Assembly: GCA_016213785.1 (NCBI GenBank)
Contig: JACQZQ010000070.1
Coordinates: 1-56,141 of the forward strand
Reading direction: 5' to 3'
Length of the DNA: 56,141 nucleotides
Source: Acidobacteriota bacterium
GTDB lineage: Bacteria > Acidobacteriota > Blastocatellia > Chloracidobacteriales > JADJPF01
Made by a program: the position numbers and the translations under genes. The notes under the pieces were generated by a model. That model ran no database searches. It was not told the DNA's origin and saw only the letters and a program-made list of their open reading frames with translations. Below are positions 5,160-34,201 of the stretch, in pieces. Within the stretch, counting starts at the first letter, position 1; every line of letters starts with the position of its first letter.

Positions 5160-5543
5160 CTATCTCTTTGCTTTTTTAAGAAAATATTCACCAGATAAAA
5201 TTTCAATCAAATGAGAATTAAATTCAGAGCGAGGCATTGTAAAATCACAGCCTGCTTCTTGTGCTTTAAGACGTAGTTCTACTTGAACATGGCTTAAAAA
5301 TCCAACTATAGGAATAGTACATAAGACAGAGTTTGATTTAAGTTCTTTGATTGCTGTTAGAGAGTCAAAACGTGGATTATTTAAGTCTAAAATTATTAGT
5401 TTAGGGTTTAGATTATTAGCTTGTTCAACCAATTTATCTGCTGATTTAATAAATGTTATATTTATATTTGTTTGACTTGCTGCACCGCTAATTTTAGAGG
5501 CAAAAATCATATCTGACACTGCTGCTAAAACTTCTTTACTCAA
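5160..5543 (-). CDS. Single-domain receiver-like protein, divergent
   Basis: The 127 residues have a CheY-like fold pattern: a hydrophobic strand ending in LIILDLNNPRFDSL (candidate phospho-acceptor Asp53), TIPIVGFLSHV as strand 4, and AGCDFTMPRSEF where the conserved KP motif normally sits. The N-terminal acidic pair is reduced (AAVSDMIF) and the invariant lysine is replaced by arginine or serine. Phosphorylation may therefore be impaired, and it could be a pseudo-receiver working by protein contact. It lies 54 bases upstream of the truncated helicase on the same strand, with no output domain. Confidence 0.65.
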   Translation of the reverse strand: MSKEVLAAVSDMIFASKISGAASQTNINITFIKSADKLVEQANNLNPKLIILDLNNPRFDSLTAIKELKSNSVLCTIPIVGFLSHVQVELRLKAQEAGCDFTMPRSEFNSHLIEILSGEYFLKKAKR

Positions 5544-5597
5544 AACTTGCTCTCCTGATTTGCTTAAAGATTAATAAACATTAAATTAATCATCAAA

Positions 5598-10860: not shown

Positions 10861-13800
10861 CTACTCACTTAATATTTCCTTTAAGGATTTTAATATTGCT
10901 TCTGCTGTATAAGGCTTAGTTAATTTTTTTACTGTGACAGACAAAGTATCTAGTTTAGTATAAACACTTAGGTCATTACTAGTAACGATTATCTTTACTC
11001 GAGGGTTAGCCTTTTTTAATGAAGAAATCACAATAGCACTATCAAGTTCAACAACAAACATATCAATTATAACAGCATCAACATGTTGATGGTTATCAAA
11101 AAAAATCGCAACAGCATCAGCCCCATTGCTAGCTGGTAAAACTCTGTAATTATATGCCTCTAGAGTAGTTTTAGAAATTTCTAAAGTAGATATTTCAGAA
11201 TCAATTAGCAGTATTGATTGATTATTACCAACAAGTGATTCATTTTTCTTAGTAAAGGACTGCTTAGTTTCTTCATCGCTTATTGCAGGTAAATATATAG
11301 AAAAAGTAGTTCCTTTATTTAGTTGGCTATTAACCCTAATAAAACCCTTATGTTTTTCTATTATACTAGCAACCATTGCTAATCCTAAACCTGTTCCATT
11401 AGCTCCTTTAGTTGTAAAAAAAGGTTCAAATATTTTTTTAACATGTTCTGTATTAATACCAACCCCAGTATCTGAAATAGAGATTTGAACAAAGGGTGTA
11501 GCCTCTTTTAATTCGTTAAACTCTTCTAGGTCATCAAGTAGTTCATTTTTTACTGTTATGGTAAGTATTCCTCCCTCAGGCATAGCTTCTCGTGCATTAA
11601 CACAAAGATTCATAAGCACTTGAAAGATCTGTGTAGCATTTGCTAAGACTAACCAGGTTTTTGGAGAATAATTAGAATAAACTCTAATACTTTGAGGAAA
11701 ACTGACTTTAATCATATTAAGTAGTTCATCAAGAACATTTTGAAGATTAATAGTGGTTTGATTAGTCTCTATACCTTTAGCAAAAGAAAGAATCTGCTTA
11801 ACCATCTCAGACCCTCGTTTAGTAGATGATTCTACTCTTTCAATAAGTCGCATGCTACGTTCATCTGCACGTTTTTTAAGCAGATCGAGTGAGAGCATAA
11901 TTGGGGTCAAGAGGTTATTAAGATCATGAGCAATACCACTAGCTAATGAACCTAGGTTTTCCATACGTTGTGTTCTTAAGAATTGAGTTTCCAGCTTCTT
12001 TTTTTCTGTAATATTAGTATTAACAAGTAAAAATGTTTTAGGGTTTTTGAAATTATCGTAAATTAATGTCCAATGGCTAAGGATAACCATATCATTTCCG
12101 TTAATATCTTGGCTAGTAATCTCACCTACCCATTCATTGGAGCTAAGAACTGTATCTATAATGTTATTAATTAGGCCAAAGTCTTGATTTGTAATTAGTT
12201 CAGCAATAGAAGCTCCAAGTGCTCTTTCTCTATCAATTCCATATAAACTCGATGCCCCTCTACTCCAAAAAACTATCTTTTGTTTTAAGTCACAGGCGAT
12301 TATAGCATCATTAGATGCATCAATTAGTTTTAAGTGTTCTCCTAAACGGTCTTCATCTTGTTTTCGTTTAATTGCTGTTACAAGTGTATGAGCAATTGTT
12401 TGTAAAAAATTAGCTTCATTGCTTGTAAAGAGTCTTTTAGTACGGGTAAAAGCTCCTAAAAAACCAAAAACTTCATTATCTATATATAACACTACACTAA
12501 TTCCACTAGTAAAATTTTGTAGCTTAAAAAATATAGGGATATTAAAGCGTAAGTCTGTTTCTATATCATCAATAATAAGAGGCCCTGTAGAACCTAAGAG
12601 CATATTTACTAAAGAGTTAGAATTTACAGATGCAACGCTTAAGCTAGTTGAATCAGAGGATGAAGAATTTTTAATAAGCCCAAAGCTTTCTGGCCTTAAA
12701 CATAGCGTATTATCTTTATCAAATTCTAGTATAAAACAACAATCAATAGTTAAAACTTCTTTTATAGCATTTATAAAATATTCCATTAATTTAGAAACGT
12801 CTACTTCTAGCAAAGCTTGTCGTCCTAATCTAACTAATAAAGATTGTTGACGTGCTCTTGTTAGTAATTCTTGTTGAGTAAGCTTTTGTTGATTTTCTAA
12901 TTTTGTTTTTTGTTGGATATGTTGATAGCTATCATAAATTATTCCAAGAACTTCTATTGCAGGTTCTAGTAGCTTTATATTTTCTTGTTCATAGGCAAAT
13001 GAGCTATTAGCTAATACAAGTACACTGGTTATTGCATTTTGGCATTTTATCGGCATACTAATAAAGTTTCGTAGCTTAAGTATTTCGCTTGTATAAGATA
13101 GATTAAGATTTTTTATTTCTGCGCTTTTAATTTGAGTTAGAGAAGTTGATAAAGTTTTGCTAATTAAGTAAAAAAGCTGGCGTTCTAAAGATATATCTTC
13201 AAAATCTCTTACGTCATCTTCTATTTCCTTAAACATAGCTCTATTGGTTTCAACTTCTATCATCTCATTAGTATTTGTAATAACTTGCAATTTTAGGTTA
13301 TCTGGAAAAAAACCAAGTGCAGCAAATTGGCTTTTAGTAACTTTAGAGATAGTTTGTAAGATTGGTTGTAAGGATTTTTTTAAATCATGTGCCTGCAAGA
13401 ATGTTGCCATAGATTCGGATATGCTAGATAGTATAGTTGTTTGTTCTTGTAGCTGGTTATTTGTTATTTTTTGCTCAGATATATCTCTAACTACTAGTGT
13501 AAGAAATAGTTCCTGGTGAGAAAATAGTTTTGAAATAGCAATATCAGCTAAAAATTCACTTCTATCTTTACGCAATCCTATAAGCCCTTGTCTATTATCT
13601 GAATATTGAAAAGGTTTGGGGCTACTTATAAACTGCTCAACATATTTATTAAAAACGCTATGAAATTTACCTAGGATTAAAATATTGAAGGGTTTACCTA
13701 GAGTTTCTTTTTTAGAGTAGCCAAATATTTTTTCTGAATTGTTATTAAAAAAACATATTTCTTGTTTTTTATTAATAACAATAACTGCATCCCCAGATAA

Positions 13801-14232
13801 TTCTAAGACTTGGAATGAATAGTTTATTTCTCTATTAGCTTTCTTTTCAGCAATTTTTTGTTTAGAAATATCTGTATGTACAATAACCACAACTGCGCTA
13901 TCAGTATTATTTGTGCGTTTAGCTGTAGCTAAGAACCAAAATTCTTCATTTGAAGTATGATAACCATACTCCATTTCAAAACTCTCTCTTTCTCCTTTAA
14001 TGACCGATGTAATGCCTTGAACAAAATGTAAGGTATATTGATTATTTGGGCTACTCACTTTACTACAAGCAGTTAAATAACTAGTATTTGTTACTAGGGA
14101 CTCTATAGATAAGGGGTGTATTTTAGCAAAGTCTTCCCAAGCTTTGTTAACAGTAATAATGTTTCCTATGGTATCTAAAATTGCAAGTCGCTGAGGGAGT
14201 AAATCTAGTAAAACATTATTAGTTAATGCCAT
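10861..14232 (-). CDS. Soluble hybrid histidine kinase with PAS and GAF sensors
   Basis: The 1123-residue kinase has no obvious membrane segment, so it probably senses a cytoplasmic signal. Domains in approximate order are PAS (8-125), PAS (135-255, DAVIVINKKQEICFFNNNSE), GAF (280-430), GAF (460-620), PAS (640-755, DAIIACDLKQKIVFWSRGAS), HisKA with phospho-acceptor His in SLASGIAHDLNNLLTP, and HATPase (NLCVNAREAMPEGG; DTGVGI; GTGLGLAMV). It ends in a receiver (about 1005-1120) with Asp in AVIIDMFV and a terminal KKLTKPYTAE lysine. It is the first gene of a two-gene operon with the sigma54 regulator and is divergent from the receiver-PilZ gene at 14763. Confidence 0.93.
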   Translation of the reverse strand: MALTNNVLLDLLPQRLAILDTIGNIITVNKAWEDFAKIHPLSIESLVTNTSYLTACSKVSSPNNQYTLHFVQGITSVIKGERESFEMEYGYHTSNEEFWFLATAKRTNNTDSAVVVIVHTDISKQKIAEKKANREINYSFQVLELSGDAVIVINKKQEICFFNNNSEKIFGYSKKETLGKPFNILILGKFHSVFNKYVEQFISSPKPFQYSDNRQGLIGLRKDRSEFLADIAISKLFSHQELFLTLVVRDISEQKITNNQLQEQTTILSSISESMATFLQAHDLKKSLQPILQTISKVTKSQFAALGFFPDNLKLQVITNTNEMIEVETNRAMFKEIEDDVRDFEDISLERQLFYLISKTLSTSLTQIKSAEIKNLNLSYTSEILKLRNFISMPIKCQNAITSVLVLANSSFAYEQENIKLLEPAIEVLGIIYDSYQHIQQKTKLENQQKLTQQELLTRARQQSLLVRLGRQALLEVDVSKLMEYFINAIKEVLTIDCCFILEFDKDNTLCLRPESFGLIKNSSSSDSTSLSVASVNSNSLVNMLLGSTGPLIIDDIETDLRFNIPIFFKLQNFTSGISVVLYIDNEVFGFLGAFTRTKRLFTSNEANFLQTIAHTLVTAIKRKQDEDRLGEHLKLIDASNDAIIACDLKQKIVFWSRGASSLYGIDRERALGASIAELITNQDFGLINNIIDTVLSSNEWVGEITSQDINGNDMVILSHWTLIYDNFKNPKTFLLVNTNITEKKKLETQFLRTQRMENLGSLASGIAHDLNNLLTPIMLSLDLLKKRADERSMRLIERVESSTKRGSEMVKQILSFAKGIETNQTTINLQNVLDELLNMIKVSFPQSIRVYSNYSPKTWLVLANATQIFQVLMNLCVNAREAMPEGGILTITVKNELLDDLEEFNELKEATPFVQISISDTGVGINTEHVKKIFEPFFTTKGANGTGLGLAMVASIIEKHKGFIRVNSQLNKGTTFSIYLPAISDEETKQSFTKKNESLVGNNQSILLIDSEISTLEISKTTLEAYNYRVLPASNGADAVAIFFDNHQHVDAVIIDMFVVELDSAIVISSLKKANPRVKIIVTSNDLSVYTKLDTLSVTVKKLTKPYTAEAILKSLKEILSE

Positions 14233-14762
14233 ACGAAATAACCTCTACATTAATTATAATTTTATTGCCTATATCACCCAGCCAAAAAGACTATACTAAC
14301 ATAACAAATAAAGCTTACGACAAGAAATGATAATTTAGTAAAATAAATATGTTAAGCTAACTTAATATATAGTAATAGAAATAACCTAAGATTTGCATAG
14401 CCACATAGTGGCTGTTGATAATAGCCCAGTCGTTTATGTCCGGCACTTTTTATCTTTTATCTTTTTATCTTATTGAGTAGATTTGGCACATATGTAATTT
14501 AAGTGCGGCATTTTTCCTCAACATTATTTACATGTTCAATTAAGCTTAAGATAAGAAAAACACTAAAGCCTGATATATCAATATGTTAAAAAATATAGTT
14601 TTTATAACTATTTTGGTATAGGAGGTGCACTAGACAAAACCAGCAAAAAATTAACCACTAAAGCCTAAATAAGAAAATTTTTATAAAACATTAAGAAATT
14701 TAATTCCTAATTAAAGGATACTGGCTAAAGATATCTGCAAAAGCTTTACGTAGGAGTATATT
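14233..14762. other. Divergent promoter region, 530 bases without a gene
   Basis: It separates the hybrid kinase (minus) from the receiver-PilZ gene (plus), so both promoters should lie here. It holds a small perfect hairpin, AGCCAC-ATA-GTGGCT at 14399-14413, and several TTTATCT-type repeats around 14447-14472. Nothing protein-coding is convincing, and I could not assign the promoters with confidence. Confidence 0.5.
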
Positions 14763-15578
14763 ATGAATATAAGATTATTAATTGTTGACGACTCTATAGA
14801 AATCCTAAACACTCTATCAGATTTTTTGATGGAAGAAGGTTATGAGGTTATAACTGCGACTAATGGAAGGGAAGCCTTAGATTTATTAGAATTAACTCAA
14901 GTTTCATTAATTATTACTGATCTTATGATGCCTAAAATGGGAGGCTTTGAATTTGTTGGCAATTGCCGTAAAACAAGCCCTTTTAACCAAATTCCTGTAA
15001 TAATGATGTCAACTAAAGATATTTCTGATAATCAACAAGTTATTTCTGAGCTTGGTATAAATGGCTTTTTATCTAAACCAGTAAACCCAGATCTTTTACG
15101 TAGAATGCTTAATTCAAGCTTAAGTTGTTTAGTAGATAGAATTCGTTCTTTTGAATTTGAAGATAATTATGAAAATAAACGTAACTATAAGAGAGTCCCT
15201 TATTTTTGTGAGACAACCATTGTTGATAAGGAATTTTTTAATGCTACAACACTTACTATGCTAACAAGTCTTAGTTGTGGTGGTTGTAGTATAGAAACTC
15301 CTCTAGCCTTACCTGTTGGTTCAATAATAACTATGCAAATAAACCTCTTGCCTTACTATACTTTAGAAGTACAAGGAGAGGTTCGCTATTCAATAGCTAA
15401 ATCTAATACAGGTATTCAATTTATTAATTTGGATCCAGCAGATAAAGAATTAATAAATGATATTGTTGCTAATATTGCTAAGATTGAAAAAGTTTTTGAG
15501 CTTGAATATCGCGACCGAACAGATAAGCTAATGGATAAAATTGATGATGTTGTTTATACCTTTTCAAAAGCTTACTAG
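14763..15578 (+). CDS. Response regulator with PilZ output domain
   Basis: Residues 1 to about 118 are a canonical receiver: VDDSIE acidic residues, phospho-acceptor Asp53 in IITDLMMPKMGG, and Lys105 in FLSKPVNP. Residues of about 138-235 form a PilZ domain, the family that binds cyclic di-GMP. The RxxxR motif is present as RNYKR (140-144). The second motif reads LTSLSCGGCS, where the usual D/N before xSxxG is a serine. It may link a two-component signal to c-di-GMP-dependent motility or surface behaviour. The gene is divergent from the hybrid kinase and is followed by a strong terminator. Confidence 0.88.
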   Translation: MNIRLLIVDDSIEILNTLSDFLMEEGYEVITATNGREALDLLELTQVSLIITDLMMPKMGGFEFVGNCRKTSPFNQIPVIMMSTKDISDNQQVISELGINGFLSKPVNPDLLRRMLNSSLSCLVDRIRSFEFEDNYENKRNYKRVPYFCETTIVDKEFFNATTLTMLTSLSCGGCSIETPLALPVGSIITMQINLLPYYTLEVQGEVRYSIAKSNTGIQFINLDPADKELINDIVANIAKIEKVFELEYRDRTDKLMDKIDDVVYTFSKAY

Positions 15579-15658
15579 TTTTTATGGATAAAATTTTTGT
15601 CCCCTCTTTAGATAAGTAATAATTCTTACATAAGTTAAAAGTTTAAGTGCTGGGAGAA

Positions 15659-15710
15659 TACATGTCCTGGTCATATCTAAATTAGAATATGACCAGGACA
15701 TGTACTTTTT
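15659..15710 (+). terminator. Strong rho-independent terminator
   Basis: An 18-bp perfect stem (15659-15676 with 15687-15704, core ATGTCCTGGTCATAT) with a 10-base loop is followed by CTTTTTT. It lies 80 bases after the receiver-PilZ stop and about 50 bases before the end of the convergent CHRD gene. Confidence 0.9.
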
Positions 15711-15757
15711 TAAAGCTACTTATAGAAAAAATTGTTTAACTAAATAGAAAAAATATA

Positions 15758-16525
15758 TTAGTTTTTTACTGGATGAATTTGACCTCTCATATCTCCAAAA
15801 TATGTTTGCCCCTTAGTGTGTAGGTTAAAGTAGAGTTCACTTTGTCTTGCAATATGTTCCATACCTGCAACAGTTTTTACTTTATCTGAGCCACCTGGAA
15901 CTATTGGACAGCCTAGAGTAAAAGCCGCTACTACCCCATGATTATGCTTAGAGCTAACAACTTTTTCTATATCTTGATTTGTTATTTCTACAGAAAAAAT
16001 TCCATCAGAAAGATTTTTTTGAATATCACCAGAATATGCAAAATCAACTAAAATAGGGCCTAACATATCTGGTTTACCGCAATGTATATGAAACATTGTT
16101 ACATCCTGAACACTTACTCCTTCAACTTTTACATCTACGTATACTTTACTAAGATCTTTAGTAAATCTTAGTGTTGCATGTCCTCGGGATTTACGCTCAT
16201 TTCTAGCTACAGAAGGCGCTGTAGACTTAAATGCTTTAGGTGTTAGTTTAGGTGTATTTTCTTCTTCTCCAGGCTCTTGTTGAGGGCTTAAATATGCTTC
16301 ATAAACAGCCCCTATCTCTTGTCCTTTATTTGCATCAAGATTTAGAGCTGTATCTTTTGTCTCAAACCTTGAATCAGCAATTACTGTCTCTGACTTAAAT
16401 AAAGAGAGTTCTTGAGCATTTCCTTTTTCAAGCCCCTTAGTATTTCTAGTCTCTTTATTAAATGTCATTAGTGATAGAAAAAATACTAAAAAAATTATCC
16501 CTATAAAAATATATTTAGAATGCAT
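15758..16525 (-). CDS. Exported CHRD-domain protein
   Basis: The 255 residues start with a short basic stretch and one hydrophobic segment (about 5-21, IFIGIIFLVFFLSLM), read as a signal anchor. A low-complexity linker to about 80 follows. The rest matches a CHRD (chordin-like) domain: YLSPQQEPG, HATLRFTKDLSKVYVDVKVEGV, TMFHIHCGKPDMLGPILVDF, and the end ELYFNLHT...FGDMRGQIHP. CHRD domains are beta-rich with conserved histidines, and their bacterial role is poorly known. The protein probably acts outside the cytoplasmic membrane. It is convergent with the receiver-PilZ gene. Confidence 0.8.
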   Translation of the reverse strand: MHSKYIFIGIIFLVFFLSLMTFNKETRNTKGLEKGNAQELSLFKSETVIADSRFETKDTALNLDANKGQEIGAVYEAYLSPQQEPGEEENTPKLTPKAFKSTAPSVARNERKSRGHATLRFTKDLSKVYVDVKVEGVSVQDVTMFHIHCGKPDMLGPILVDFAYSGDIQKNLSDGIFSVEITNQDIEKVVSSKHNHGVVAAFTLGCPIVPGGSDKVKTVAGMEHIARQSELYFNLHTKGQTYFGDMRGQIHPVKN

Positions 16526-17353
16526 AACCTTCTACTTACTCCTTATTATTTGTTAGAAAATTCTTTAAAACCAACTTTAAAACCAAATAGAGCAAGAATG
16601 CTCAAGCTAAACAATAGTGATAGGCTTACTACTCTGTAATTTAATTGACCCCAGCTTATAATACCTAGGATTTATTCTTAATTTGTAAAGTAATATACAT
16701 TAGCTTAACTAAGTTAGCTATTTTAGTTTTGTATTTGATAAGTAAGGCGTAAAAAGTAAAAATTTTGGATAGACATATTACCGGATTGTTTTTAAACAAA
16801 AATCTTATTACTCTAAAATTTCAGAGCAATTTGTAAAACTAGTAATGTTTGTAATAGGTTATAAACTAAACAAAACTATATAGTTCTTTTTCTGTAGAAA
16901 CACTTTATTTATGAAAAATTTATGAAGATTTAATTGAGAGTTTATGGAAAATTTACTAAGATGGAAAAAAATCTGATAGATAATTAGTTTCATTATATAG
17001 TATAGTAACTTTAAGTCTTTTGGTTTCAAAACTTACCTATAAATTTTTACCTAGTTAGTTTTGTAAAAGTAAAAATAAAGTTTTAAACTACTCACGAAAA
17101 ACTCACGAAAAATTCATTAGAATACTTAGATAAGTTTTGTAGCCTACAATATATTACTTGCTGAAACAAAATAACCAACTAATAAACTATGCGTATAAGT
17201 AAGTAATCAAATAGCAGCAGAATAGTAGAAAATGTGCCTAAGTATGCCCTGGGTTATCTAGAGGAATAGCTTTTCTAGAAAAACCGCCTTATGTTTGCTT
17301 AGAGTAATTTTCTAGTGCCCCAAATTTATTTAGTTAGAGGGAGAAATTTATTT
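16526..17353. other. Long divergent intergenic region with a possible structured leader
   Basis: This stretch of 828 bases between the CHRD gene (minus) and the TonB receptor (plus) is very A+T-rich and has no convincing gene. Near the receptor, at 17238-17302, CTAAG and CTTAG can pair around an inner hairpin TCTAGA (17257-17262) with TCTAGA (17274-17279). This could be a folded 5' leader. A short direct repeat, ACTCACGAAAA, occurs twice near 17091-17112. No known riboswitch consensus was recognised. Confidence 0.4.
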
Positions 17354-20140
17354 ATGAAGAGAAATGTTCTAGAAAGCTCTTTGTTGGCAATTTTAATAAG
17401 TCTTTGGTTTTATACCCCGCCTGCTTTCTCAGCAATAGTTCAAACACAAAATGCAAATATTAGTGGTGTTGTACGTAATCAACAAAATATAGCTGTTGGT
17501 GATGCAAAAATCCTAGTTTATGATGAAAAAGAAACTTTACTTACTAGTACTAAGACTGATAAGGAAGGTTTTTTTAAGATAGATAATTTAGTCTTAGGTA
17601 ATTATAAACTAATTATTCAACACCCTAGTTATAGAGAATATAACAGTAGTTTGCTTTTTACAGAGGTAAGCAAAGATAGTCTGGAATTTGTATTGACTGC
17701 TACTGAGCTTTCAGAAGGGCTTTCTATTACAGCTGTTCTTGATCCTGAACAAGAAGCCTTTGATGCTTCACAACAAATTGAACTTGCGTCTAAAAGAGAA
17801 TTAACCAGTAGACCAGGTTTATTACTTCCTCAGTTATTACAAGAAGAAGCAGGTGTTAGACCTATATTAGGTAGCACTTTTTATGGACAAACAATAATAA
17901 GAGGACTAACAGGACAAAGGGTTGTTACCTTACTTGATGGTGTACGATTTAATACAAGTACTTTTACTGCCGGGCTTGAACCCCCTGTAGGCTTAATAGA
18001 TGCTAGTATTGCACGACAAGTAGAGTTAATTTATGGCCCAGGCTCAGCCCTTTATGGTAGTGATGCTTTAGGGGGAACAGTTAATTTAATAAGTGAAAAA
18101 CCAAGATTTTTTAAAAAGCCTTGGGAGTTTCATGGCGAAATGTCTACATTTTTTAGTAGTGCAAATGCTGCAAGTGGTGGGGACTTAAAATTAGTCGCAG
18201 GCAATAAAAGGATAAGCTTATTATTTAGCGGTTTTGGGAAACGAATTAATGATTTAAGGGCAGGAGGTGGACTAGATTCCCATTCAGTTGCTACAAGATA
18301 TTTTGGCCTATCTTCAAAACTACTTGGCGATAGAATGCAAGACACAGGTTATCTACATTATGGTGGCACAGGTAAGATTGTTTATAAAATAGATGAGTCT
18401 CAACTCTTATCCCTTTTCTATCAACATACTACCGAGCGTAACACAAGAGTTTATTTTTTACTTAATGGTGGTATAGGTATCCAAGAAAGCGATTTTAGCC
18501 CACAAGTACTAGACTTTTTCTATACCCGTTATGAAAAAGAAAATTTATCTATATTTGATTCTTTAACAGGAACTTTTTCTTTTAATCGACAACGCCAACA
18601 ATTTAATGTTAAACCAGATCTTTCTGACTTATCTACTGATGAATATAGGCTGGCAAGGGCATTTGGCTATACTTTGCAAGCTACTACTCATATTGGTAGC
18701 TATCAATTTTTAACTCTAGGTGCTGAAATTTATGATGAAAGAATAACTAATAGACGCTTTATTTTTCTTCCTCCATCTAATCAAGGCATTCCAATACCTG
18801 GTACAGTTCCAAATGGTACAAAATATTCAAGCTATGGAGTTTACCTACAAGACACTGTAGAGCTATTACCAGGAAAATTACGTCTTAATGGTGGACTTCG
18901 TTATAGTGCATTTTTTTATAAAACTGATAGTAGAAAAAATGTGCTTGATTTTTCTGGAAACCCATCAGTAAAAGACCTCTCAATTCGTAATGATGATCTT
19001 ACTTTTAACCTTGAGGGTGTTGTTTTTATTAAACAACGCCTAAATTTAATAGCTAATATTAGTCGAGGTTTTCGTTCACCAAATGTTATAGATTTTGGCT
19101 CTGTTGGCAGCCTACCATCAGGTTTTGAAGTACAAACAAGCGATGCAGAAGCACTTGGTGGTTTTGTAGGTACTACTATAGGTGGTGATGCAATTTCTAC
19201 TGGTAGAAAAGTAACTAAACTTGAGCCAGAAAGCCTATTAAACTTTGAGTTAGGTGTAAAATACCGAAGTAAGTTTCTTAGCGCCAGTGCTACATTTTTT
19301 AATAGCAATATAAATGATTTTATTACTCAAAGAGCACTTATATTGCCTCAAGGCGCAGTTGGAAAAATACTAAGCGGATTGCCTATTATTTCCCAAGATC
19401 CTAATGGTACTGTAAGAATCCCTATAGATGGCCGTCCAGTAATAGTTAAATCTAACATTGGAAATATTCGTCTTTATGGTATGGAGACAAACGCTCAAAT
19501 TAAAATTTCAAATAGTTTAACTCTATCAGGTAATTTTTCTTATTTAAGAGGTAAAGATAAAAATCCTACTCCCCTAGGTAAAGCTTCACCAAGTCAACCA
19601 CAAATATTAAAAAAATCTGCTGATATTCCAGAAATCGAAGGAGGGCTACCACCAGCGGCAGGCTTTATTAGTTTGCTTTACCAGCCTAAAAATAAGACAT
19701 TTTGGGTAGAAGCTTATTCTAATATGTCTTCTTTTCAAGATAGGCTCTCTTCTCTAGATTTAGCTGATCTGCGTATAGGTGCTAGTCGTAGTCGTAATGC
19801 TATAGCTGCTTTCTTTTTTGGTGGAGGGCGTAACAGAAATTTAACAGGCAATGGACAAGATAATTTAGCAGGAACTAGTGATGATATTTTGCTAGCTACA
19901 GGTGAAACACTTCAACAAGTTCAAGATAGAGTTCTTGGAGTTGGTATAACAAATGCTCCTCTTTTTACCTCTACTCCAGGTTATGCAACATTTAACCTGC
20001 GAGGAGGCTTTCAATTAAGCCAAAGAAGTAATATCACAATAATAATGGAAAATATTTTAGATAAAAATTATCGCCAACATGGTTCTGGTGTTGATGGAGC
20101 GGGAGTTAATTTAGTTGTTCGTTACTCTTGGCAATTTTAA
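17354..20140 (+). CDS. TonB-dependent receptor, siderophore/haem-type plug
   Basis: The chosen start is the ATG at 17354, preceded by GAGGGAGA and followed directly by a signal peptide (MKRNVLESSLLAILISLW, cleaved near AFSA). The upstream in-frame GTG at 17315 would bury it. The 928-residue product has a carboxypeptidase-regulatory-like domain (ISGVVRNQQNIAVGDAKILV). The plug is of the FepA/HmuR kind (IIRGLTGQRVVTLLDGVRF; IYGPGSALYGSDALGGTVN). The barrel ends RYSWQF. The plug resembles iron-complex or cobalamin receptors more than the Oar-like ones in this window, but the substrate is not proven. It heads a probable operon with a mini-TonB and a chemoreceptor. Confidence 0.9.
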   Translation: MKRNVLESSLLAILISLWFYTPPAFSAIVQTQNANISGVVRNQQNIAVGDAKILVYDEKETLLTSTKTDKEGFFKIDNLVLGNYKLIIQHPSYREYNSSLLFTEVSKDSLEFVLTATELSEGLSITAVLDPEQEAFDASQQIELASKRELTSRPGLLLPQLLQEEAGVRPILGSTFYGQTIIRGLTGQRVVTLLDGVRFNTSTFTAGLEPPVGLIDASIARQVELIYGPGSALYGSDALGGTVNLISEKPRFFKKPWEFHGEMSTFFSSANAASGGDLKLVAGNKRISLLFSGFGKRINDLRAGGGLDSHSVATRYFGLSSKLLGDRMQDTGYLHYGGTGKIVYKIDESQLLSLFYQHTTERNTRVYFLLNGGIGIQESDFSPQVLDFFYTRYEKENLSIFDSLTGTFSFNRQRQQFNVKPDLSDLSTDEYRLARAFGYTLQATTHIGSYQFLTLGAEIYDERITNRRFIFLPPSNQGIPIPGTVPNGTKYSSYGVYLQDTVELLPGKLRLNGGLRYSAFFYKTDSRKNVLDFSGNPSVKDLSIRNDDLTFNLEGVVFIKQRLNLIANISRGFRSPNVIDFGSVGSLPSGFEVQTSDAEALGGFVGTTIGGDAISTGRKVTKLEPESLLNFELGVKYRSKFLSASATFFNSNINDFITQRALILPQGAVGKILSGLPIISQDPNGTVRIPIDGRPVIVKSNIGNIRLYGMETNAQIKISNSLTLSGNFSYLRGKDKNPTPLGKASPSQPQILKKSADIPEIEGGLPPAAGFISLLYQPKNKTFWVEAYSNMSSFQDRLSSLDLADLRIGASRSRNAIAAFFFGGGRNRNLTGNGQDNLAGTSDDILLATGETLQQVQDRVLGVGITNAPLFTSTPGYATFNLRGGFQLSQRSNITIIMENILDKNYRQHGSGVDGAGVNLVVRYSWQF

Positions 20141-20206
20141 TTCACTAAAGAAAATGCATAACTCAAATAATTACTTAATATGTATATTAAATGCGGAGAA
20201 ATACTA

Positions 20207-20548
20207 ATGAAAGAAGTTCTTACAGCAGTTTTGTTAATTGTATTAGTAACTGCTAATGTTTTTATGGTAAAAGCTTTTGAGTTTGATGCTAATCTAGAAG
20301 CTAAAGCCACTAAAAAAGTCGCACCTCTTTATCCTCCATTAGCCAAACGTAAGCGTGTAGAAGGTAAGGTTAAAATAGGCATACAATTAGACTCAGAAGG
20401 TGCGGTTTCAAAAGTAGAATTTATAGAAGGCAATGCTCTATTTAAGCCAGCCTCGCTAGAAGCAGCAAAACAATGGAGCTTTTCTAAATCTATGGCAGGA
20501 ACTAACGGTCATATAGTCTTTAATTTTAAGCTTGAAGAAAAAGAATAA
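20207..20548 (+). CDS. Small TonB C-terminal-domain protein
   Basis: The ATG at 20207 is preferred over the one at 20180 because GGAG lies 9 bases upstream and a hydrophobic signal segment begins at once (MKEVLTAVLLIVLVTANVFM). The 113-residue product is essentially a TonB C-terminal domain: KVAPLYPPLAKRKRVEGKVKIGIQLDSEG, ending QWSFSKSM and FNFKLEE. It lacks the long proline-rich spacer that lets classical TonB span the periplasm. It may act as a periplasmic partner or pseudo-TonB for the receptor 66 bases upstream. The MCP gene starts 20 bases later, suggesting one transcript. Confidence 0.82.
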   Translation: MKEVLTAVLLIVLVTANVFMVKAFEFDANLEAKATKKVAPLYPPLAKRKRVEGKVKIGIQLDSEGAVSKVEFIEGNALFKPASLEAAKQWSFSKSMAGTNGHIVFNFKLEEKE

Positions 20549-20567
20549 ACCTTAGGAGAGTTTGTTT

Positions 20568-22547
20568 ATGAAAAAATGGTTTCATCTATCGCTAAAGAAA
20601 AAAACCATCCTAGGTACTACATTAGTAGTTATTTTATTAATTACTATAGGTTTAATAACTTCATATGCAATAAAAAGTATCCAAGTGGATTATGAAAACG
20701 CTATAAGTAAAGAATATAAACAAGCCATTACTGTTCTAGAGCTACAACTAGCTACTAGCAGGCAACAATACTCTATTGTTAAGGCTGTAACATTTGGCAC
20801 AAAAGCAAATAATGATGAATACTCACTTGCTGAAAATGAAATTAGCAGTAACTTGTCTAAACTAGAAAAGCTAAATAGCTTAAAAACTCAAGATATTGAG
20901 GCTATTAGAAAAAATGCACAGCTTTTTCAAGAAAGTGCACTACGTTCTACTAAAGCACTTGAACAAAACAAGGCCGAAGAGGCTCTTAATATTTTAGGAG
21001 GAGAATTAAACGACATAAGCACTACTCAAACAGCCTTTTTAACTAAACTCTCTGAAAAAGCAATAAAAAACTCTGAAAATAGTATTGAACAAGTACAATC
21101 TCATGCAAATAAAACTGTACAACTAGTTTATTTATTTTTGTTTCTTGCCGTATTAGCTGCTATGGCTATGGCTATATTAGCCCTCTACACCTTTGTAAGA
21201 CCATTAAATCAAATTGCTAAAATAACCGAATCTATTGCAAAAGGTGATCTAAATATTGAACTAAAAAATACAAATGAAAAAACTGAACTAAGCATTCTAC
21301 TTAGATCTATTGGTAGCTTAGTAGAAGGATTGCGTAATTTTACTTTTTCTATTGAACAAATCGCCCAAGGAAACCTAAATATTAAAATTGAACCTCGCAG
21401 CAGCAAAGATACTCTAGGAATAGCTCTGCAAGAAATGGTAAACTCTTTATATTCTATAGTTTTTAGTGTTCGCACTAGTGCAGAAGAAGTAAAATCAATT
21501 AATCTTTCAACAGATCTTGTAGGTTCAGGCAAACAACTTGAGCAGGATAATGGAAAAGTGGCTACATCTGTAGAAAATGTAGCTTCGGTTTTAGAAGAAC
21601 TTTCACAAAATATTCGTGCTATAGCTGAGAATGTAGAAACACAAGCCTCTAGTGTTACTGAAACAGACCAATCTATACAAAGTATGGTTAATAGACTGAA
21701 AAATATTACTAGCAATACTAAAGACCTTAAAAACTCTGTTAATAAAGCAAGAGGTTCTGTAGATGAAGGTCGTAGTTTTGTAAATCAGGCTGCTAGCGGA
21801 ATGCACGAAATTAATAGTTCAATAAATACAACTTCTAAAACTATTGAAGAGCTTAGTGGTCATGTAACTACAATAGGACGAATTACAGAAGTCATTAACA
21901 CTATCTCAGATCAAACAAACCTACTTGCCTTAAATGCTGCTATAGAAGCTGCTCGTGCAGGTGAACATGGCTTAGGATTTGGAGTTGTAGCACAAGAAGT
22001 TCGTAAACTCTCAGAAAGAACCGCTCAATCAGCCGAAGAAATTGCTCAACTAATTAATATCGTTAAAAAAAGTGTTCAACAAGTTGAAAAGCATATAGGT
22101 CATACTACAGAACTAGTAGAAGAAGGGCTTAGTCAATCTTCAAAAGCTGTTAATTCCCTTAGCCAGATTGATACGGTTGTAGGTACTGTCTTAAAAGCAT
22201 CAATAGATATAGATGATATTACTCAAGAACAATTAGTTGGTGCTCAACAAATTTCTGAAGCTATGAAACAACTAACTTTAATTACATATGAAATCCAAGC
22301 TGCTAGCCAAGAACAAACTCTATCAACTAAAGAGATTGTTAAATCTGTAGTACATTTACGTGACACAATTGAGCGCAATAATAAATTATCTCAACATCTA
22401 TCTTCGGCAGGTGGTTCAGTGCTTTCACAATTAAGCTGTTTAGAAGAGGCTGTTAAAGCTTTCCGTCTCTCTGATCAAGTATTAAATAGCTTAACTAAAT
22501 CAAACTCGTTAAACACTCTAGAACTTAAACGTGCTTATCTTTTGTAA
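20568..22547 (+). CDS. Methyl-accepting chemotaxis protein
   Basis: AGGAG nine bases before the ATG at 20568 fixes the start; an in-frame TTG at 20562 is less well placed. The 659 residues contain TM1 (about 13-35), a helical periplasmic sensor with a four-helix-bundle pattern, TM2 (about 184-210), tandem HAMP-like segments, and a coiled-coil signalling domain. The conserved hairpin tip reads [20 protein letters not shown] followed by VVAQEVRKLSERT. It should control a CheA kinase, but no che genes are in the window. It sits in the same transcription unit as the TonB receptor and mini-TonB, suggesting that the transported nutrient, or the loaded receptor, is also a chemotactic cue. Confidence 0.93.
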   Translation: MKKWFHLSLKKKTILGTTLVVILLITIGLITSYAIKSIQVDYENAISKEYKQAITVLELQLATSRQQYSIVKAVTFGTKANNDEYSLAENEISSNLSKLEKLNSLKTQDIEAIRKNAQLFQESALRSTKALEQNKAEEALNILGGELNDISTTQTAFLTKLSEKAIKNSENSIEQVQSHANKTVQLVYLFLFLAVLAAMAMAILALYTFVRPLNQIAKITESIAKGDLNIELKNTNEKTELSILLRSIGSLVEGLRNFTFSIEQIAQGNLNIKIEPRSSKDTLGIALQEMVNSLYSIVFSVRTSAEEVKSINLSTDLVGSGKQLEQDNGKVATSVENVASVLEELSQNIRAIAENVETQASSVTETDQSIQSMVNRLKNITSNTKDLKNSVNKARGSVDEGRSFVNQAASGMHEINSSINTTSKTIEELSGHVTTIGRITEVINTISDQTNLLALNAAIEAARAGEHGLGFGVVAQEVRKLSERTAQSAEEIAQLINIVKKSVQQVEKHIGHTTELVEEGLSQSSKAVNSLSQIDTVVGTVLKASIDIDDITQEQLVGAQQISEAMKQLTLITYEIQAASQEQTLSTKEIVKSVVHLRDTIERNNKLSQHLSSAGGSVLSQLSCLEEAVKAFRLSDQVLNSLTKSNSLNTLELKRAYLL

Positions 22548-22568
22548 AAAATAACCAATAGATAAAAG

Positions 22569-23858
22569 TTAATTTCCTATTTGATCAGTTCCTTTTTCTA
22601 TAATAAATTCTAGTGTAGTTTCGCCTAAGTTGATACGATCACCAGATCTTAGCAGTCTTCTTTCAGCAACATTAAGTTTTTCACCATTTAATAGGCTTCC
22701 ATAAGTACTACCAACATCCTCAAAATAGTAGTGGTTAGAGAGTTTTATTATTTGTGCATGTTTACGAGAAATTTTTCCTGATTGGTCTATTAAAGAAAGG
22801 TCAATATCAGGGATAGTTCCTTTTGCTGGGTCTTGTCTACCTATAGAGTAGCTAGCTTTTTTAATTAAAAACTCTGCCATTTTCTTTTTTTGGTGATATA
22901 TTTTAAGCCTTCCATTTATCTTAATAGGTTTATTTACTTTTTTATGATGTGATTCCCATTCTTTAGGCGGGTATTTTAACGTGCTATCAACACTTTCTTT
23001 AGTGGTTTTTTCATTGATAATTTTATCTAAATGTTCTTCTAGCACTGATTTCATTACTTGTGCTGAGCAAAATCTATGTTCTGGGCTAGTTGAAAGCGCT
23101 TTAATTAATATTTTTTCCATTTCACAAGAAATATCTCTATTTATTGCCCTAGGTAAAACTCTTATAGCACATTCAAATAATATATCTGGGAGTTCTGGTA
23201 TAACTCCTGTTAGTAAGTGATACATTGTTGCACCTAGAGAATAAATATCTGAGGCTGGAGTAACCCTGCCTTGGAGAAGTTCAGGAGGAGCATAACCAAA
23301 AGTTCCAACTGCTGTAACAACACTAACAGAAGGTTTTACAAACCGAGCAACCCCAAAATCTATAAGGAAAATTTGTTGAAGCTTTTCATTTAGCATAACA
23401 TTAGCTGGTTTTAAGTCGCGGTAGATCATAGGTGGGTTAAGCTTGTGAAGATAATTAAGTGTGTCACATAGTTGAATTCCCCATAGAGTAACTTGTTTTT
23501 CATCCATCCATCCTCTTTTAGATTGATTTAGTTTTTGCTCTAGACTCAAGCCTTCAATATATTGAATAGCAAGAAAAAAATCTCCCTCCATTAAAAAAAA
23601 ATCATGTAGTGCAGGAATTGAAGGATGTTCAAGTTTTGAGAGTATTTCTGCTTCTCGGTTAAAATCCTGCATTGCTTTTAAGTATTGATCATAATCAACA
23701 TACTCTACAAACATTTGTTTTATGGCAAGAAAAGACCCTTCTATTTGTAAATCACGAGCTAAGTAAACTTTGCTATTCCCACCCTTACCCAGACGTTTAA
23801 TAATTTCATAACGATTATTAAGAATCGTTCCATTAAGATAAGCATCGCCTATACGCAT
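22569..23858 (-). CDS. Serine/threonine protein kinase with C-terminal FHA domain
   Basis: Residues 17 to about 280 are a Hanks-type kinase: glycine loop LGKGGNSKVYLARD, ATP lysine Lys47 (LAIKQ), catalytic loop YRDLKPAN at 146-153, DFG at 167-169, and APPE in the activation segment (GTFGYAPPE). Residues of about 330-425 form an FHA domain that binds phosphothreonine (SIGRQD, ISRKHAQI, VGSTYGSLLNG). No membrane segment is visible, unlike many bacterial kinases of this family, so it is probably cytosolic. The FHA domain may recognise its own autophosphorylation or a substrate. It lies convergent to the first chemoreceptor and divergent to the second. Confidence 0.95.
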   Translation of the reverse strand: MRIGDAYLNGTILNNRYEIIKRLGKGGNSKVYLARDLQIEGSFLAIKQMFVEYVDYDQYLKAMQDFNREAEILSKLEHPSIPALHDFFLMEGDFFLAIQYIEGLSLEQKLNQSKRGWMDEKQVTLWGIQLCDTLNYLHKLNPPMIYRDLKPANVMLNEKLQQIFLIDFGVARFVKPSVSVVTAVGTFGYAPPELLQGRVTPASDIYSLGATMYHLLTGVIPELPDILFECAIRVLPRAINRDISCEMEKILIKALSTSPEHRFCSAQVMKSVLEEHLDKIINEKTTKESVDSTLKYPPKEWESHHKKVNKPIKINGRLKIYHQKKKMAEFLIKKASYSIGRQDPAKGTIPDIDLSLIDQSGKISRKHAQIIKLSNHYYFEDVGSTYGSLLNGEKLNVAERRLLRSGDRINLGETTLEFIIEKGTDQIGN

Positions 23859-24383
23859 AAAATATTATTTAACCAAATAAATCCTTTAATCCTTAGAGTA
23901 GTTTAGCCTTATTTTAATTAAACTGTTAGATTCTTTAGACTGTTTTTACTTATTTTACCCTTTTACAAGATTTTGAGTAGTATTTTGAATACTAAGGCTT
24001 AATACGAATCTTTTTTACTTAGTGAATAATAATTGCTTATAATACATAGTGATTTTTCAGTGATATTAAATGTCATGATACTACTACAAAATAACTTTTT
24101 CTCCTGTCACTTGTTACTACTATAAAAACAGTATAACTACCTTTACAATTTACATTAAATGAGAAACTATATTTATTTAAAACCAAACATTACTTTAGTG
24201 ATTAAACAGAAATTCCCTCTGATTTGTAAAGAAATCAAAAAAGTAAGTAAATAAGTAAAAGGGTAGAAATTTAGAGATAGTAAAAAAGTATCTATAAATC
24301 CTGAAACTCTTTATTTCCATCACTTTTGCTTTGTTAAGGGTTGATAGTAGTTGATAATAGCTTAAGGGAAGTAGGAGGTTTTT
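23859..24383. other. Divergent intergenic region, 525 bases
   Basis: It lies between the kinase-FHA gene (minus) and the second chemoreceptor (plus). It is very A+T-rich and has no recognisable gene or RNA. Promoters for both neighbours should be here. Confidence 0.5.
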
Positions 24384-26324
24384 GTGTTTAAACGGATGAC
24401 AATAGCAAAGCAATTAATCTTAGCATTTAGTACAGTTTTAATATTACTTTGTTGTGCTGGGGGAATAAGTTTTTGGTACTTATACAAGCTTTATAATGGA
24501 ATCGAGGTTTTACAAACAAACGCTAAGATATCAACCTATGCAATGCAGGTACGAAGTGATTATGCAAATATGCGAAGATTTGAAAAAGGCATATTTATAA
24601 ATATTGCATCTATAGAAAAACAAGAACCTTACTTAACTATGTGGAAGAAAACACATAATAGCTTAATAACTACAATTGGAGGACTAAATAAATATGTGCT
24701 GCTTAAAGAAGACAGAGATAAAGTAAATTTGATGCAACAAATATTGGCAAATTACCAATTTGGCTTTAATCAGACTGTTGAGCAAATGCAGAGGGGTGAA
24801 TATAAAGACGCTCAACAGGTAAATGATGCAATGGATAAATTTCGATGGTCAGCCAATGAACTTGAGAATAATGGTAAATTACTTGCTACAAAAACCAGTA
24901 AAAGAAGTGAGCTAAGCCTAGAAAGTTTATCTAATCAATTTAAACAGGCCATATGGATTATCTTAATAACCTTAATTGTAGTTTTTATTTTTATTGCAAT
25001 ACTTGGCAGTTTCTTTATACACAATATTAGAAAACCAATCTTACAAGCTGTAATGGTTGCTGAAAGGGTTGCTCTAGGAGATGTAGAGCAAAATATTATT
25101 GTAGAAAATAAACGTAATGAAATAGGACAGTTACTCTCATCTATGAGAAATATGGTTGAGTCATTAAAGGAAAGCGCAATAATAGCTGAAAAAATTGCTG
25201 CTGGTAATCTTGATGTTAATGTAGAGAAAAAATCAGAAATAGATAGTTTTAGAACTAGTCTTAAAAAGATGGTTAAAGACTTACAAAATGCTGTTATCTC
25301 TATTAGTAGGGCTGCTAACCAAGTTTTTGTTGGAAGCAGCGAAATAGCTTATGTCTCAGAACATTCATCTCAAGTTAATAAAAATATTTCTTGCTCTGTT
25401 GATACAACTAGCGCTGCAATACATCAAATAAGTGTTAATACTCAACATATTGCTAAAAAAACACAAGAACAACTCTCTCTTGCTAATAAAGTAAGTGCAA
25501 GTAGTTTAGAAATGGTTTCTTCTATAGGAAGCATTACAGAAACCTCTAAAAAGATGCTTTTTATTTCACAACAATCAAAGAAGGATGTTTTACATGGTCT
25601 TGAAGCAATGGAAAATAATATCAAAGGAATGGATAGAGTAAATGAAAGCCTTAATTACCTTGCGCATACTGTAAATACCCTACAGGATAAAACCAAAAAC
25701 ATTGGTAAAATTGTTGATGTAATAGCTAATATAGCAGATCAGACAAATCTTCTTGCCTTAAATGCGGCAATTGAAGCAGCACGTGCAGGTCAACATGGAT
25801 TAGGTTTTGCTGTGGTTGCAGAGGAAGTTCGTAAACTCTCAGATCGATGTACAAATAGCACTAAAGAAATATCGGATCTTATTGCAAGCATTGAAAAAGA
25901 GATGGCTAAAGCAGTTAAATATATGGAACAAAGTACACAAATAGTTAGCGAAAGTACGCTACTTTGTAATAGCGCTGGTAAAGCACTCAAATGTATTGAA
26001 AAATCGGCAATTGAAGTTCACCAATTCACTTTTATAGTTGATGCAGCTAATAATGAGCAAAGTCAAGCTTGGAACGGAATTACAGACATACTTACCAAGC
26101 TAAATTATTTAACAGAAGAAATAAATGCAGCTGCTTTTGAACAAGCTATAGGAGTACGAGAAATTGCTGAGTCTATGGAAAAAATTGCAGCAGCATTAAA
26201 TCAAAATACTGCTCTATCCTTACGCCTTGCTACTAGTGGTAAAGAAATGGCACTACAAAGCCAAGTCTTACAAAGAGTTGTAAATCATTTTAATTTTGGG
26301 GTATTAAAAACTGTTGAGCCGTAA
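24384..26324 (+). CDS. Methyl-accepting chemotaxis protein
   Basis: A perfect AGGAGG at 24373-24378 lies five bases before GTG 24384, so the GTG start is preferred over the ATG at 24396, which would be 17 bases away. The 646 residues have TM1 (about 13-34), a helical periplasmic domain (about 35-190) of the four-helix-bundle type, TM2 (about 191-213), HAMP (about 214-265) and a second HAMP-like segment. The cytoplasmic hairpin has the tip [20 protein letters not shown] and [14 protein letters not shown]. It is a stand-alone gene, similar in plan to the receptor at 20568 but divergent in the sensor region, so it probably responds to a different ligand. Confidence 0.93.
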
Positions 26325-26514: not shown

Positions 26515-27291
26515 ATGGAACTATTAGGTAAAACTGCTTTAGTCACTGGCGGAGGGCGTGGAATAGGGCGATCATGCGCTTTAGCCTTAGCTCGTGCAGG
26601 TGCGCAAATTGTAGTTGCTGCTAGAACTATTACAGAAATTCAAGAAGTTGCTAAAGAAATTGAAGCTTTAGGTCGTCCTGCTTTGGCGCTAACTTTAGAT
26701 GTCTCCAAATTAGAGAGTGTAGAACTCGCATTTAAGCAAGTTACAGATAAATGGGGAGGCTGTGATATTTTGGTTAATAATGCAGGTATAGCTGCTAGTG
26801 CTCCTATTGCTAAATGTTCTGAAGAACTTTGGTCAGAAATAATGGAAATTAACCTAACAGGGACTTTTCGTTGTATGAAAGCAGCCTTGCCAACAATGCT
26901 TGCTCGTAATTGGGGACGAATTATAAATATTGCTTCAATTGCTGGAAAAGCTGGCGCTCCTTATATTAGCGCCTATGCTGCTTCTAAACACGGTGTCTTA
27001 GGCTTAACTAAAGCTGCTGCCCAAGATGTTGCAACTAAAAACATTACTATTAATGCTATTTGTCCCGGTTATGTTGAAACTGATATGAGCGAAAAAGCAA
27101 TTAATACTATTATAAGTAAAACAGGCGCAAGTAAAGAACAAGCCCGAAGTGTTTTAGAACAAATGACCCCACAACGTAGACTTTTTCAACCTGAAGAAGT
27201 AGCTTTTCTTACAGTATCACTTGCATCCCCTTTAGCCGCAGGAATTAACGGTCAAGCTATTAATATTTGTGGAGGAGCAGTTCCTTACTAA
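26515..27291 (+). CDS. SDR-family 3-hydroxyacyl-CoA dehydrogenase-like oxidoreductase
   Basis: This is a 258-residue classical short-chain dehydrogenase with TGGGRGIG (11-18) for NAD(P), NNAG (88-91), and catalytic Ser141, Tyr154 and Lys158 (YAASK). It ends in a FabG-like tail with ICGG. It resembles FabG and 3-hydroxyacyl-CoA dehydrogenases. It is the first gene of a tight run with RidA (3-base gap), enoyl-CoA hydratase and acyl-CoA dehydrogenase. In that context it is more likely to oxidise a 3-hydroxyacyl-CoA intermediate in a beta-oxidation-like route than to serve fatty-acid synthesis. Confidence 0.88.
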   Translation: MELLGKTALVTGGGRGIGRSCALALARAGAQIVVAARTITEIQEVAKEIEALGRPALALTLDVSKLESVELAFKQVTDKWGGCDILVNNAGIAASAPIAKCSEELWSEIMEINLTGTFRCMKAALPTMLARNWGRIINIASIAGKAGAPYISAYAASKHGVLGLTKAAAQDVATKNITINAICPGYVETDMSEKAINTIISKTGASKEQARSVLEQMTPQRRLFQPEEVAFLTVSLASPLAAGINGQAINICGGAVPY

Positions 27292-27294
27292 ACT

Positions 27295-27708
27295 ATGTCA
27301 AATAATACAGAAAATAAATTTGAAGCAATAAATCCTATAGGTTGGGCAAAACCTACAGGTTATAACAATGGAATGCTTGCTAAAAACGGCTCAATCCTTT
27401 TTATTGCAGGTCAAATTGCTTGGGATAAAGATAAAAACCTTGTTAGCTCAGAATTTTCCCTACAATTTGACCAAGCCTTAAGTAATGTTATTGAGATAGC
27501 AAAAGCCGCAGGTGGTCAAGCTACAGATATTGGTAAATTAACAATCTATGTTACTGATAAAGAACAATATATTGCTGAAATTAAAGCCGTAGGCGCAGCT
27601 TACCGTAAACACATGGGAAAACATTTTCCAGCTATGGCACTCATTGAAGTTAAAGCTTTGCTAGAACCTGGTGCAAAAGTTGAAATCGAAGCAATGGCTG
27701 TAATTTAG
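27295..27708 (+). CDS. RidA-family enamine/imine deaminase
   Basis: This is a 137-residue YjgF/YER057c/UK114-type protein, ending HFPAMALIEVKALLEPGAKVEIEAMAVI-like. The usual arginine in the active-site region (R-D-L-L-E) is not obvious in this form. RidA proteins hydrolyse reactive enamines and imines released by PLP enzymes or amine oxidation. Placed between an SDR and CoA enzymes, it may release ammonia from an amino-substituted ring-cleavage or dearomatised intermediate, as in 2-aminobenzoyl-CoA or aminomuconate pathways. It begins 3 bases after the SDR stop. Confidence 0.85.
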   Translation: MSNNTENKFEAINPIGWAKPTGYNNGMLAKNGSILFIAGQIAWDKDKNLVSSEFSLQFDQALSNVIEIAKAAGGQATDIGKLTIYVTDKEQYIAEIKAVGAAYRKHMGKHFPAMALIEVKALLEPGAKVEIEAMAVI

Positions 27709-27754
27709 CTAGTAAAATACTTATAAAAATAACTTAAAATATAAAGGTTCAAGA

Positions 27755-28549: not shown

Positions 28550-28554
28550 AAATT

Positions 28555-29694: not shown

Positions 29695-29788
29695 TTTAAC
29701 CATAGGTTTTTCTTATGTCTTTCTCTAAAAGATAAGCTAAAATTGTTTAATTATTTCGGCCAAGTTAGTTTATCTTTTAGGGGAAAAT

Positions 29789-32836: not shown

Positions 32837-32990
32837 AATATTAATAAACTAGAATACTAATAAATTTGCCTAGGATTTTATATGAGCTTAAAAAATTAAA
32901 GAACTGTCTAGTTTGCAACCATTTATGAGCAATGATAAAATCTTTTTCTCCAGTAACACCCTACATTAATTACAAAGGAAAAATAAACCT

Positions 32991-34184: not shown

Positions 34185-34201
34185 TAAAAATGTAAATAAA
34201 A

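Follow-up and report, generated by a model that had tools for sequence, protein, structure and literature searches.

The window analysed here is a stretch of 56,141 nucleotides from an Acidobacteriota bacterium (assembly GCA_016213785.1, contig JACQZQ010000070.1), and on its forward strand three consecutive genes encode, in this order, a TonB-dependent outer-membrane receptor, a short protein with a TonB C-terminal domain (hereafter mini-TonB) and a methyl-accepting chemotaxis protein (MCP). The features of this triad are as follows.

17354-20140, + strand: TonB-dependent outer-membrane receptor, 928 aa; N-terminal hydrophobic segment, CarboxypepD_reg, Plug, beta-barrel (Pfam)
17711-17755, + strand: TonB-box-like segment SEGLSITAVLDPEQE at the CarboxypepD_reg/Plug junction (position and pattern, alignment of nine receptors)
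20207-20548, + strand: mini-TonB, 113 aa; hydrophobic N-terminal segment and TonB C-terminal domain (PF03544)
20207-20275, + strand: hydrophobic segment of the mini-TonB, ending VKA; export signal or short anchor (sequence, hydropathy)
20321-20530, + strand: TonB_C domain of the mini-TonB (Pfam, residues 48-117 of the ORF from 20180)
20568-22547, + strand: MCP, 659 aa; TM1, predicted periplasmic four-helix bundle, TM2, HAMP, MCP signalling domain (Pfam)
20649-21122, + strand: periplasmic sensor domain of the MCP, about 160 residues, predicted four-helix bundle (hydropathy, model)

Organization of the triad

The intergenic gaps measure 66 bases between receptor and mini-TonB and 19 bases between mini-TonB and MCP, in agreement with the gene positions and the spacings of 66 and about 20 given in an earlier note on this DNA, and a plausible ribosome-binding site lies ahead of all three starts. 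Judged by strand and spacing, the three genes probably form one operon that would be read as a single transcript. Promoter and terminator scans of the window did no better than shuffled sequence (19 promoter matches against a shuffle mean of 21.8, and 3 terminators against 2.6), and no Rfam model reached its gathering score in the window, a riboswitch in the receptor leader included. The mini-TonB reading frame opens at 20180, and the ATG at 20207, which is preceded by GGAGA, gives the 113-residue product; the MCP was started at the ATG at 20568, its listed frame opening at a TTG at 20562.

Domain content identifies all three products. In the receptor, Plug (PF07715, 54.9 bits) and the TonB-dependent-receptor barrel (PF00593, 113.4 bits) both exceed their cut-offs and identify a TonB-dependent receptor; CarboxypepD_reg (PF13620, 43.1 bits) takes the place of an STN domain, for which Pfam gave no match on this protein. 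The mini-TonB scores 41.8 bits against TonB_C (PF03544), over a cut-off of 24.6, which establishes its TonB C-terminal domain, and the third protein joins a membrane-flanked sensor to HAMP (PF00672, 37.1 bits) and an MCP signalling domain (PF00015, 135 bits), the makeup of an MCP. We take SEGLSITAVLDPEQE in the receptor to resemble the TonB boxes of Escherichia coli, and by its position and pattern it would be a docking site for a TonB C-terminal domain. Related receptors in the alignment have a TonB-box-like stretch at the equivalent place, ahead of Plug.

Five neighbours scanned by Pfam between 10861 and 26324 comprise two kinases, a receiver-PilZ protein, a CHRD protein and an MCP. Beside the triad, at 22569-23858 on the reverse strand, lies a serine/threonine kinase with an FHA domain, and the same architecture occurs beside an MCP in a second chemosensory cluster of this genome (G000:C64; L049:7809-18171), which encodes a CheA-receiver protein, CheB, a kinase-FHA protein, an MCP, an unknown protein of 127 aa and two TonB_C proteins. 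One of these two TonB_C proteins is proline-rich, and the cluster represents a TonB-MCP association of a different type. Elsewhere in the window are a glucose-6-phosphate dehydrogenase with a C-terminal cyclic-nucleotide-binding domain (7303-9243, reverse strand) and a CRISPR array of more than 30 repeats, spaced at 71-76 bases (37550-40000), that runs into a cas6 reading frame (39952-40809, start approximate).

The mini-TonB is a TonB domain on a short spacer

A profile built from nine mini-TonB relatives matches solved TonB C-terminal domains, best among them 1u07, 8rd6 and 2gsk, and also 2grx, with E-values of 6.7e-12 to 4.7e-11 for 1u07, 2gsk and 2grx; the last two are, to our understanding, structures of the domain in receptor complexes. 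Family and solved domains have the YP and RIEG residues in common, within the stretch QPxYPxxAQxxRIEG. A structure model of the mini-TonB itself was discarded at a mean pLDDT of 50.9.

What sets the protein apart is the distance between its hydrophobic segment and the YP motif, which in the window copy amounts to 20 residues with one proline. The corresponding ranges are 19-42 residues and 1-4 prolines across the nine mini-TonBs measured, whereas 11 further TonB_C proteins from the five genomes that carry the family have spacers of 106-267 residues that contain 7-45 prolines; the earlier description of the protein as devoid of a proline-rich spacer is thus upheld. At about 20 residues a spacer does not suffice to cross a normal periplasm, and the mini-TonB, cleaved or anchored, seems not long enough to connect the two membranes. 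Both copies from the genus have a hydrophobic segment that terminates in VKA, a motif after which cleavage by signal peptidase would fit. That the mini-TonB does not span the envelope, a second assertion of the earlier note, is supported by this spacer together with the conserved triad and the recurrent receptor-sensor combination described below.

The triad is conserved, and its family is narrowly distributed

The one other genome of the genus that we saw (G001) contains this triad with its gene order unchanged. Receptor, mini-TonB and MCP are 69.5% (over 865 aligned residues, the G001 receptor being cut by a contig end), 72% and 76.8% identical to their counterparts there, with dN/dS values of 0.15, 0.21 and 0.16, and all three genes are accordingly under purifying selection between the two genomes. 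Between the mini-TonB and MCP genes of G001 lies a set of 11-base tandem repeats (L048:3829-3912). Adjacency in relatives, which the earlier note had proposed as a check, is thus kept within the genus, and a second family shows the combination too, with two of its instances located inside che operons.

A profile search of 162 genomes of the class retrieved 11 mini-TonB genes from five of them (G000, the window's own, with G001, G033, G040 and G044). These score 147-172 bits, and the next protein, a CarboxypepD_reg-TonB_C fusion, reaches 84 (84.3). Nine of the 11 were in the profile, chosen from the best matches after their neighbourhoods had been seen; the two outside it, G033:C57:37275 and G044:C664:335, score 146.8 and 152.9 bits. 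Two CarboxypepD_reg-TonB_C fusions (C130 of the window's genome and C531 of G001) had comparable scores in the first search and lacked the neighbourhood; they were left out of the profile and placed in the control set described below. Such fusions, which unite both domains in one small protein with a hydrophobic N-terminus (L051:6684-7277 by Pfam, L059:6016-6588 by local alignment), rank directly below the mini-TonBs in profile score, in both genomes of the genus.

With 5 carriers among 162 class genomes, the family has a narrow, scattered distribution. By the profile search it is absent from G002 and G003, which belong to the same family of genomes as the window, and it is present in three of the seven listed genomes of family f3 and absent from the other four. 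One carrier, G033, is by identical sequence Chloracidobacterium sp. UBA7656, a genus placed in Acidobacteriota, Blastocatellia by the NCBI taxonomy. Among 396 genomes drawn from the phylum, searched with a stricter cut-off and at most 11 candidates scored per genome, only the window's own was found to carry the family; since the four other known carriers did not appear (either undrawn or missed), this draw is weak evidence of absence. Among plasmids, matches occur in 16 Pantoea records, of which the 10 listed align over 72% of the query at 31-33% identity and are named TonB family protein.

Loci with an MCP and loci with a histidine kinase

Outside the genus, the mini-TonB genes lie in the following gene orders.

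L056 (G033:C60), one strand: CheA, OMP, mini-TonB, MCP, CheW (by local profile only), CheR
L055 (G033:C146), CheD to CheB all on one strand: response regulator, EAL, receiver-like ORF, GAF, CheD, CheA, mini-TonB, TBDR, OMP, mini-TonB, MCP, CheW, CheR, CheB
L052 (G033:C57): kinase, mini-TonB, OMP, second mini-TonB
L053 and L054 (G044:C664 and G040:C46): kinase, OMP, mini-TonB, mini-TonB

The kinases of L052-L054 are HAMP-HisKA-HATPase proteins that replace the MCP while OMP and mini-TonB are kept; that of L053 has a match to 4HB_MCP_1 below its cut-off. Over the seven loci the sensor is an MCP in four (G000, G001 and G033 twice), so that this form is found in three genomes only, and a histidine kinase in three (G033, G040 and G044). 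The earlier proposal of a receptor coupled directly to chemotaxis accordingly holds in one part, in that receptor, mini-TonB and sensor occur together, and needs changing in another, in that the partner is not always an MCP. Given this division, the theme of the loci is the connection of an outer-membrane receptor to an inner-membrane sensor, rather than chemotaxis as such.

The receptors at these loci are likewise of two kinds, Plug-type TonB-dependent receptors (TBDR) and OMP_b-brl_4 proteins. The latter presumably resemble Oar, and little is known, to our knowledge, of what they do. Receptors are common in these genomes and MCPs rare: three of the five carriers have 52-56 candidate frames for OMP_b-brl_4 receptors each, as compared with 5-10 MCP matches per genome across all five.

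Receptor and sensor neighbours recur at mini-TonB genes

Neighbours were counted with local profiles at 40 bits or more, on the same strand and within less than 5 kb. An OMP/TBDR neighbour accompanies all 11 mini-TonB-family genes, an MCP or histidine kinase (HK) 10 of them, and both together 10; the eleventh (L055:5034) lies more than 5 kb from the MCP, yet in the same gene run as CheA and MCP. Among 49 other TonB_C genes of the class, none has an OMP/TBDR neighbour, four have a sensor (two at the C64 cluster of the window's genome, which is one locus, and one each at L082 and L083) and none has both. The difference for both neighbours (10/11 versus 0/49) has a hypergeometric probability of 1.5e-10, or 3e-7 with the 11 genes collapsed to 5 distinct loci. 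These figures are to be read against a control drawn from 45 loci hand-picked among the matches rather than all matches, and against profiles built from triad and own-genome proteins, which may miss unlike receptors or kinases in control loci; one opposite-strand receptor near L078 was left uncounted. In direct adjacency the two partners differ: an OMP/TBDR gene adjoins 9 of the 11 mini-TonB genes, the remaining two adjoin a further mini-TonB gene, and an MCP/HK gene adjoins only 5 of 11.

Short TonB_C proteins outside the family were set aside: L088 (129 aa) adjoins an MFS transporter and an intein-bearing polymerase, and L089 (a 90-aa frame) is without receptor or sensor neighbours. At L090 the local profile scored no TonB_C gene. 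On L088, genes for the intein-bearing DNA polymerase A and a UDP-glucose dehydrogenase lie side by side (930-7004).

A predicted four-helix bundle in the window MCP, and sensor groups without significant similarity

Modelling of the MCP sensor gave helices at residues 2-75, 82-101, 107-132 and 136-224, with pLDDT values of 72-90 over the sensor blocks from an alignment of two sequences. A Foldseek search with this model returned no match at E <= 0.001; the 50 matches listed include, with probabilities near 1, the sensors of NarQ, LytS (5xsj, TMt 0.79), PcaY_PP, MCP2201 and Tsr, and unrelated helical proteins as well. Comparison of the sensors of the window and G001 MCPs, the G033 MCPs and the kinases by hhalign found no common sequence (E of 0.05 or worse), and with three sensor groups that have no significant mutual similarity, no common docking surface is visible.

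Two queries, the kinase sensor of L054 and the MCP sensor of L056, were searched against the 162 genomes. The former occurs at 65-100% identity only at the three kinase-type mini-TonB loci (its own included), with one further match, at 24%, in an MCP of the window's own genome; the latter matches only itself and the MCP of L055, the other G033 mini-TonB locus of this kind, at 49%. Because these matches fall almost only at mini-TonB loci, both sensor types can be said to accompany the mini-TonB and hardly to occur elsewhere.

Candidate output and ligand

Flagellin_N has no match in G000, G033, G040 or G044 and a 68-residue match in G001, and each of the five carriers has 8-25 PilT-family matches, of which 4-10 exceed the cut-off. 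With flagellin almost absent and PilT-family proteins throughout, twitching is likelier than swimming, and type IV pili (for the che-type clusters) or kinase signalling would be a more likely output than flagella. The EAL domain encoded at L055 may point to an involvement of c-di-GMP.

Downstream of the triad, beyond a kinase-FHA gene and a second MCP, the window encodes an SDR protein, a RidA-family protein, an enoyl-CoA hydratase (PRK08258, over cut-off), an acyl-CoA dehydrogenase and an OMP_b-brl_4 receptor, as well as kynureninase-like and tryptophan 2,3-dioxygenase-like proteins whose TIGR01814 and TIGR03036 scores are below the curated NCBIfam cut-offs. In G001, three same-strand genes that follow the triad correspond in size and order to SDR, RidA and hydratase, as judged by position and start sequence. 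From the genes downstream of the triad, one might guess at a ligand of tryptophan or anthranilate type. The region 26515-37101 is in itself a probable catabolic cluster leading from tryptophan/kynurenine to anthranilate-type compounds, with an OMP receptor of its own.

A possible trans-envelope sensing module

Gram-negative cells must sense what lies beyond the outer membrane, but their chemoreceptors, located in the inner membrane, detect only what has entered the periplasm. The reading that we favour, at a probability of about one half, is that the triad is a trans-envelope sensing module that leads from receptor through mini-TonB to inner-membrane sensor. The outer-membrane receptor would bind a ligand outside the cell. 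The exported mini-TonB, too short for the periplasm and hence not the usual energiser, would dock through its TonB C-terminal domain on the TonB-box region of the receptor, and this binding would change with receptor occupancy. The free or the bound state would then be read by the periplasmic four-helix bundle of the sensor, in the window an MCP feeding CheA; relatives have either this type of protein or a histidine kinase. What has been observed is the conservation of the genes, their domains, the shortness of the spacer and the repeated association with receptor and sensor genes, and a functional coupling of receptor, mini-TonB and sensor has good support. That the mini-TonB acts as a physical relay is plausible, and the steps of such a relay, from docking on the TonB box through sensor contact to output via type IV pili or gene expression, are put forward as predictions.

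Another route would have a normal TonB help the receptor import the ligand, which the four-helix bundle of the MCP then binds in the periplasm. The mini-TonB would only regulate or gate the receptor, perhaps as a competitor of energised TonB at the TonB box. Four-helix-bundle MCP sensors do commonly bind small molecules, and Tsr and PcaY_PP, with their ligands, are in the fold list obtained for the window sensor; the closer adjacency of the mini-TonB to OMP/TBDR than to sensor genes fits this route too. Contig C31 of the window's genome (L071), moreover, encodes a 262-aa TonB, followed by a 252-aa protein that we assume from its position to be ExbB and by two ExbD genes, and uptake could thus be energised without the mini-TonB. 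What such a route leaves unexplained is that the mini-TonB members are all clustered with a sensor, despite the abundance of OMP_b-brl_4 frames in each of three genomes, and we hold it to be less likely than the relay, though it is the principal competitor.

It is more doubtful that the mini-TonB is an ordinary TonB, a short ExbBD-driven inner-membrane energiser of its receptor with the MCP as a merely co-regulated neighbour. The protein does have the hydrophobic N-terminal segment and TonB C-terminal domain that this would call for. The inner-membrane anchor of TonB carries a Ser/His motif that couples it to ExbBD, and a histidine in the hydrophobic segment is absent from the window copy and present in three of nine mini-TonBs; this absence is not counted against an ordinary TonB, as none of the 11 longer TonB_C proteins has one there either. 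Its roughly 20-residue spacer, however, is too short for a normal periplasm, sensor neighbours recur (10/11), and ExbD genes, while found in all five carrier genomes, are found on none of the contigs of the seven mini-TonB loci. Chance neighbourhood or an assembly artefact is a negligible prospect, for although the five-genome set is small and the locus pairs G000/G001 and G040/G044 are alike by descent, the triad is kept under purifying selection in two genomes of the genus and the neighbour combination sharply separates family from control.

Should the module act as a trans-envelope sensor, a cell could respond to ligands that are bound at the outer membrane and not imported, and TonB domains would gain a signalling role apart from energy transfer. 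These operons also constitute a small, testable set for the function of OMP_b-brl_4 receptors. It is a tentative possibility, to which we give somewhat less than even odds, that they represent a new class of trans-envelope signalling, in which a receptor and a detached, non-energised TonB domain would signal to four-helix-bundle sensors of a chemosensory array or a histidine kinase.

Comparison with known systems

Among the genome papers, transcriptomes and reviews listed from the full-text literature, judged by titles and the beginnings of abstracts and with subscription papers mostly outside its scope, we recognised no description of a module of receptor, mini-TonB and chemoreceptor. Oar of Myxococcus xanthus is an outer-membrane protein that a reference title describes as a TonB-dependent transporter required for PopC secretion (PMC10653833). 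The passages of that source consulted here mention no mini-TonB or chemoreceptor partner of Oar (PMC10653833).

With the TonB energy transducer, the mini-TonB has in common the C-terminal domain and the residues of the QPxYPxxAQxxRIEG stretch; it differs in its length of 113 aa, in lacking a proline-rich spacer, in having no ExbD gene on its contig and in its link to a sensor. In cell-surface signalling of the FecA/FecR/FecI type, TonB-dependent transducers work with FecR-type anti-sigma factors, and the likeness to the proposed module is that an outer-membrane TonB-dependent receptor passes its occupancy across the periplasm to an inner-membrane protein. The triad departs from this scheme in a receptor without STN, in a partner that is an MCP or a histidine kinase and in a separate TonB-domain protein, and no FecR anti-sigma or ECF sigma gene is found among the five scanned neighbours (10861-26324).

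For the last step there is precedent. The four-helix-bundle receptor Tar reads a periplasmic protein when it senses maltose-binding protein, and the XylFII-LytSN complex (5xsj, by its title) provides a precedent in fold, its four-helix-bundle sensor having a similar fold and reading a protein that lies outside the inner membrane. What would distinguish the triad from both is that the protein to be read is a TonB domain, with its outer-membrane receptor encoded beside it.
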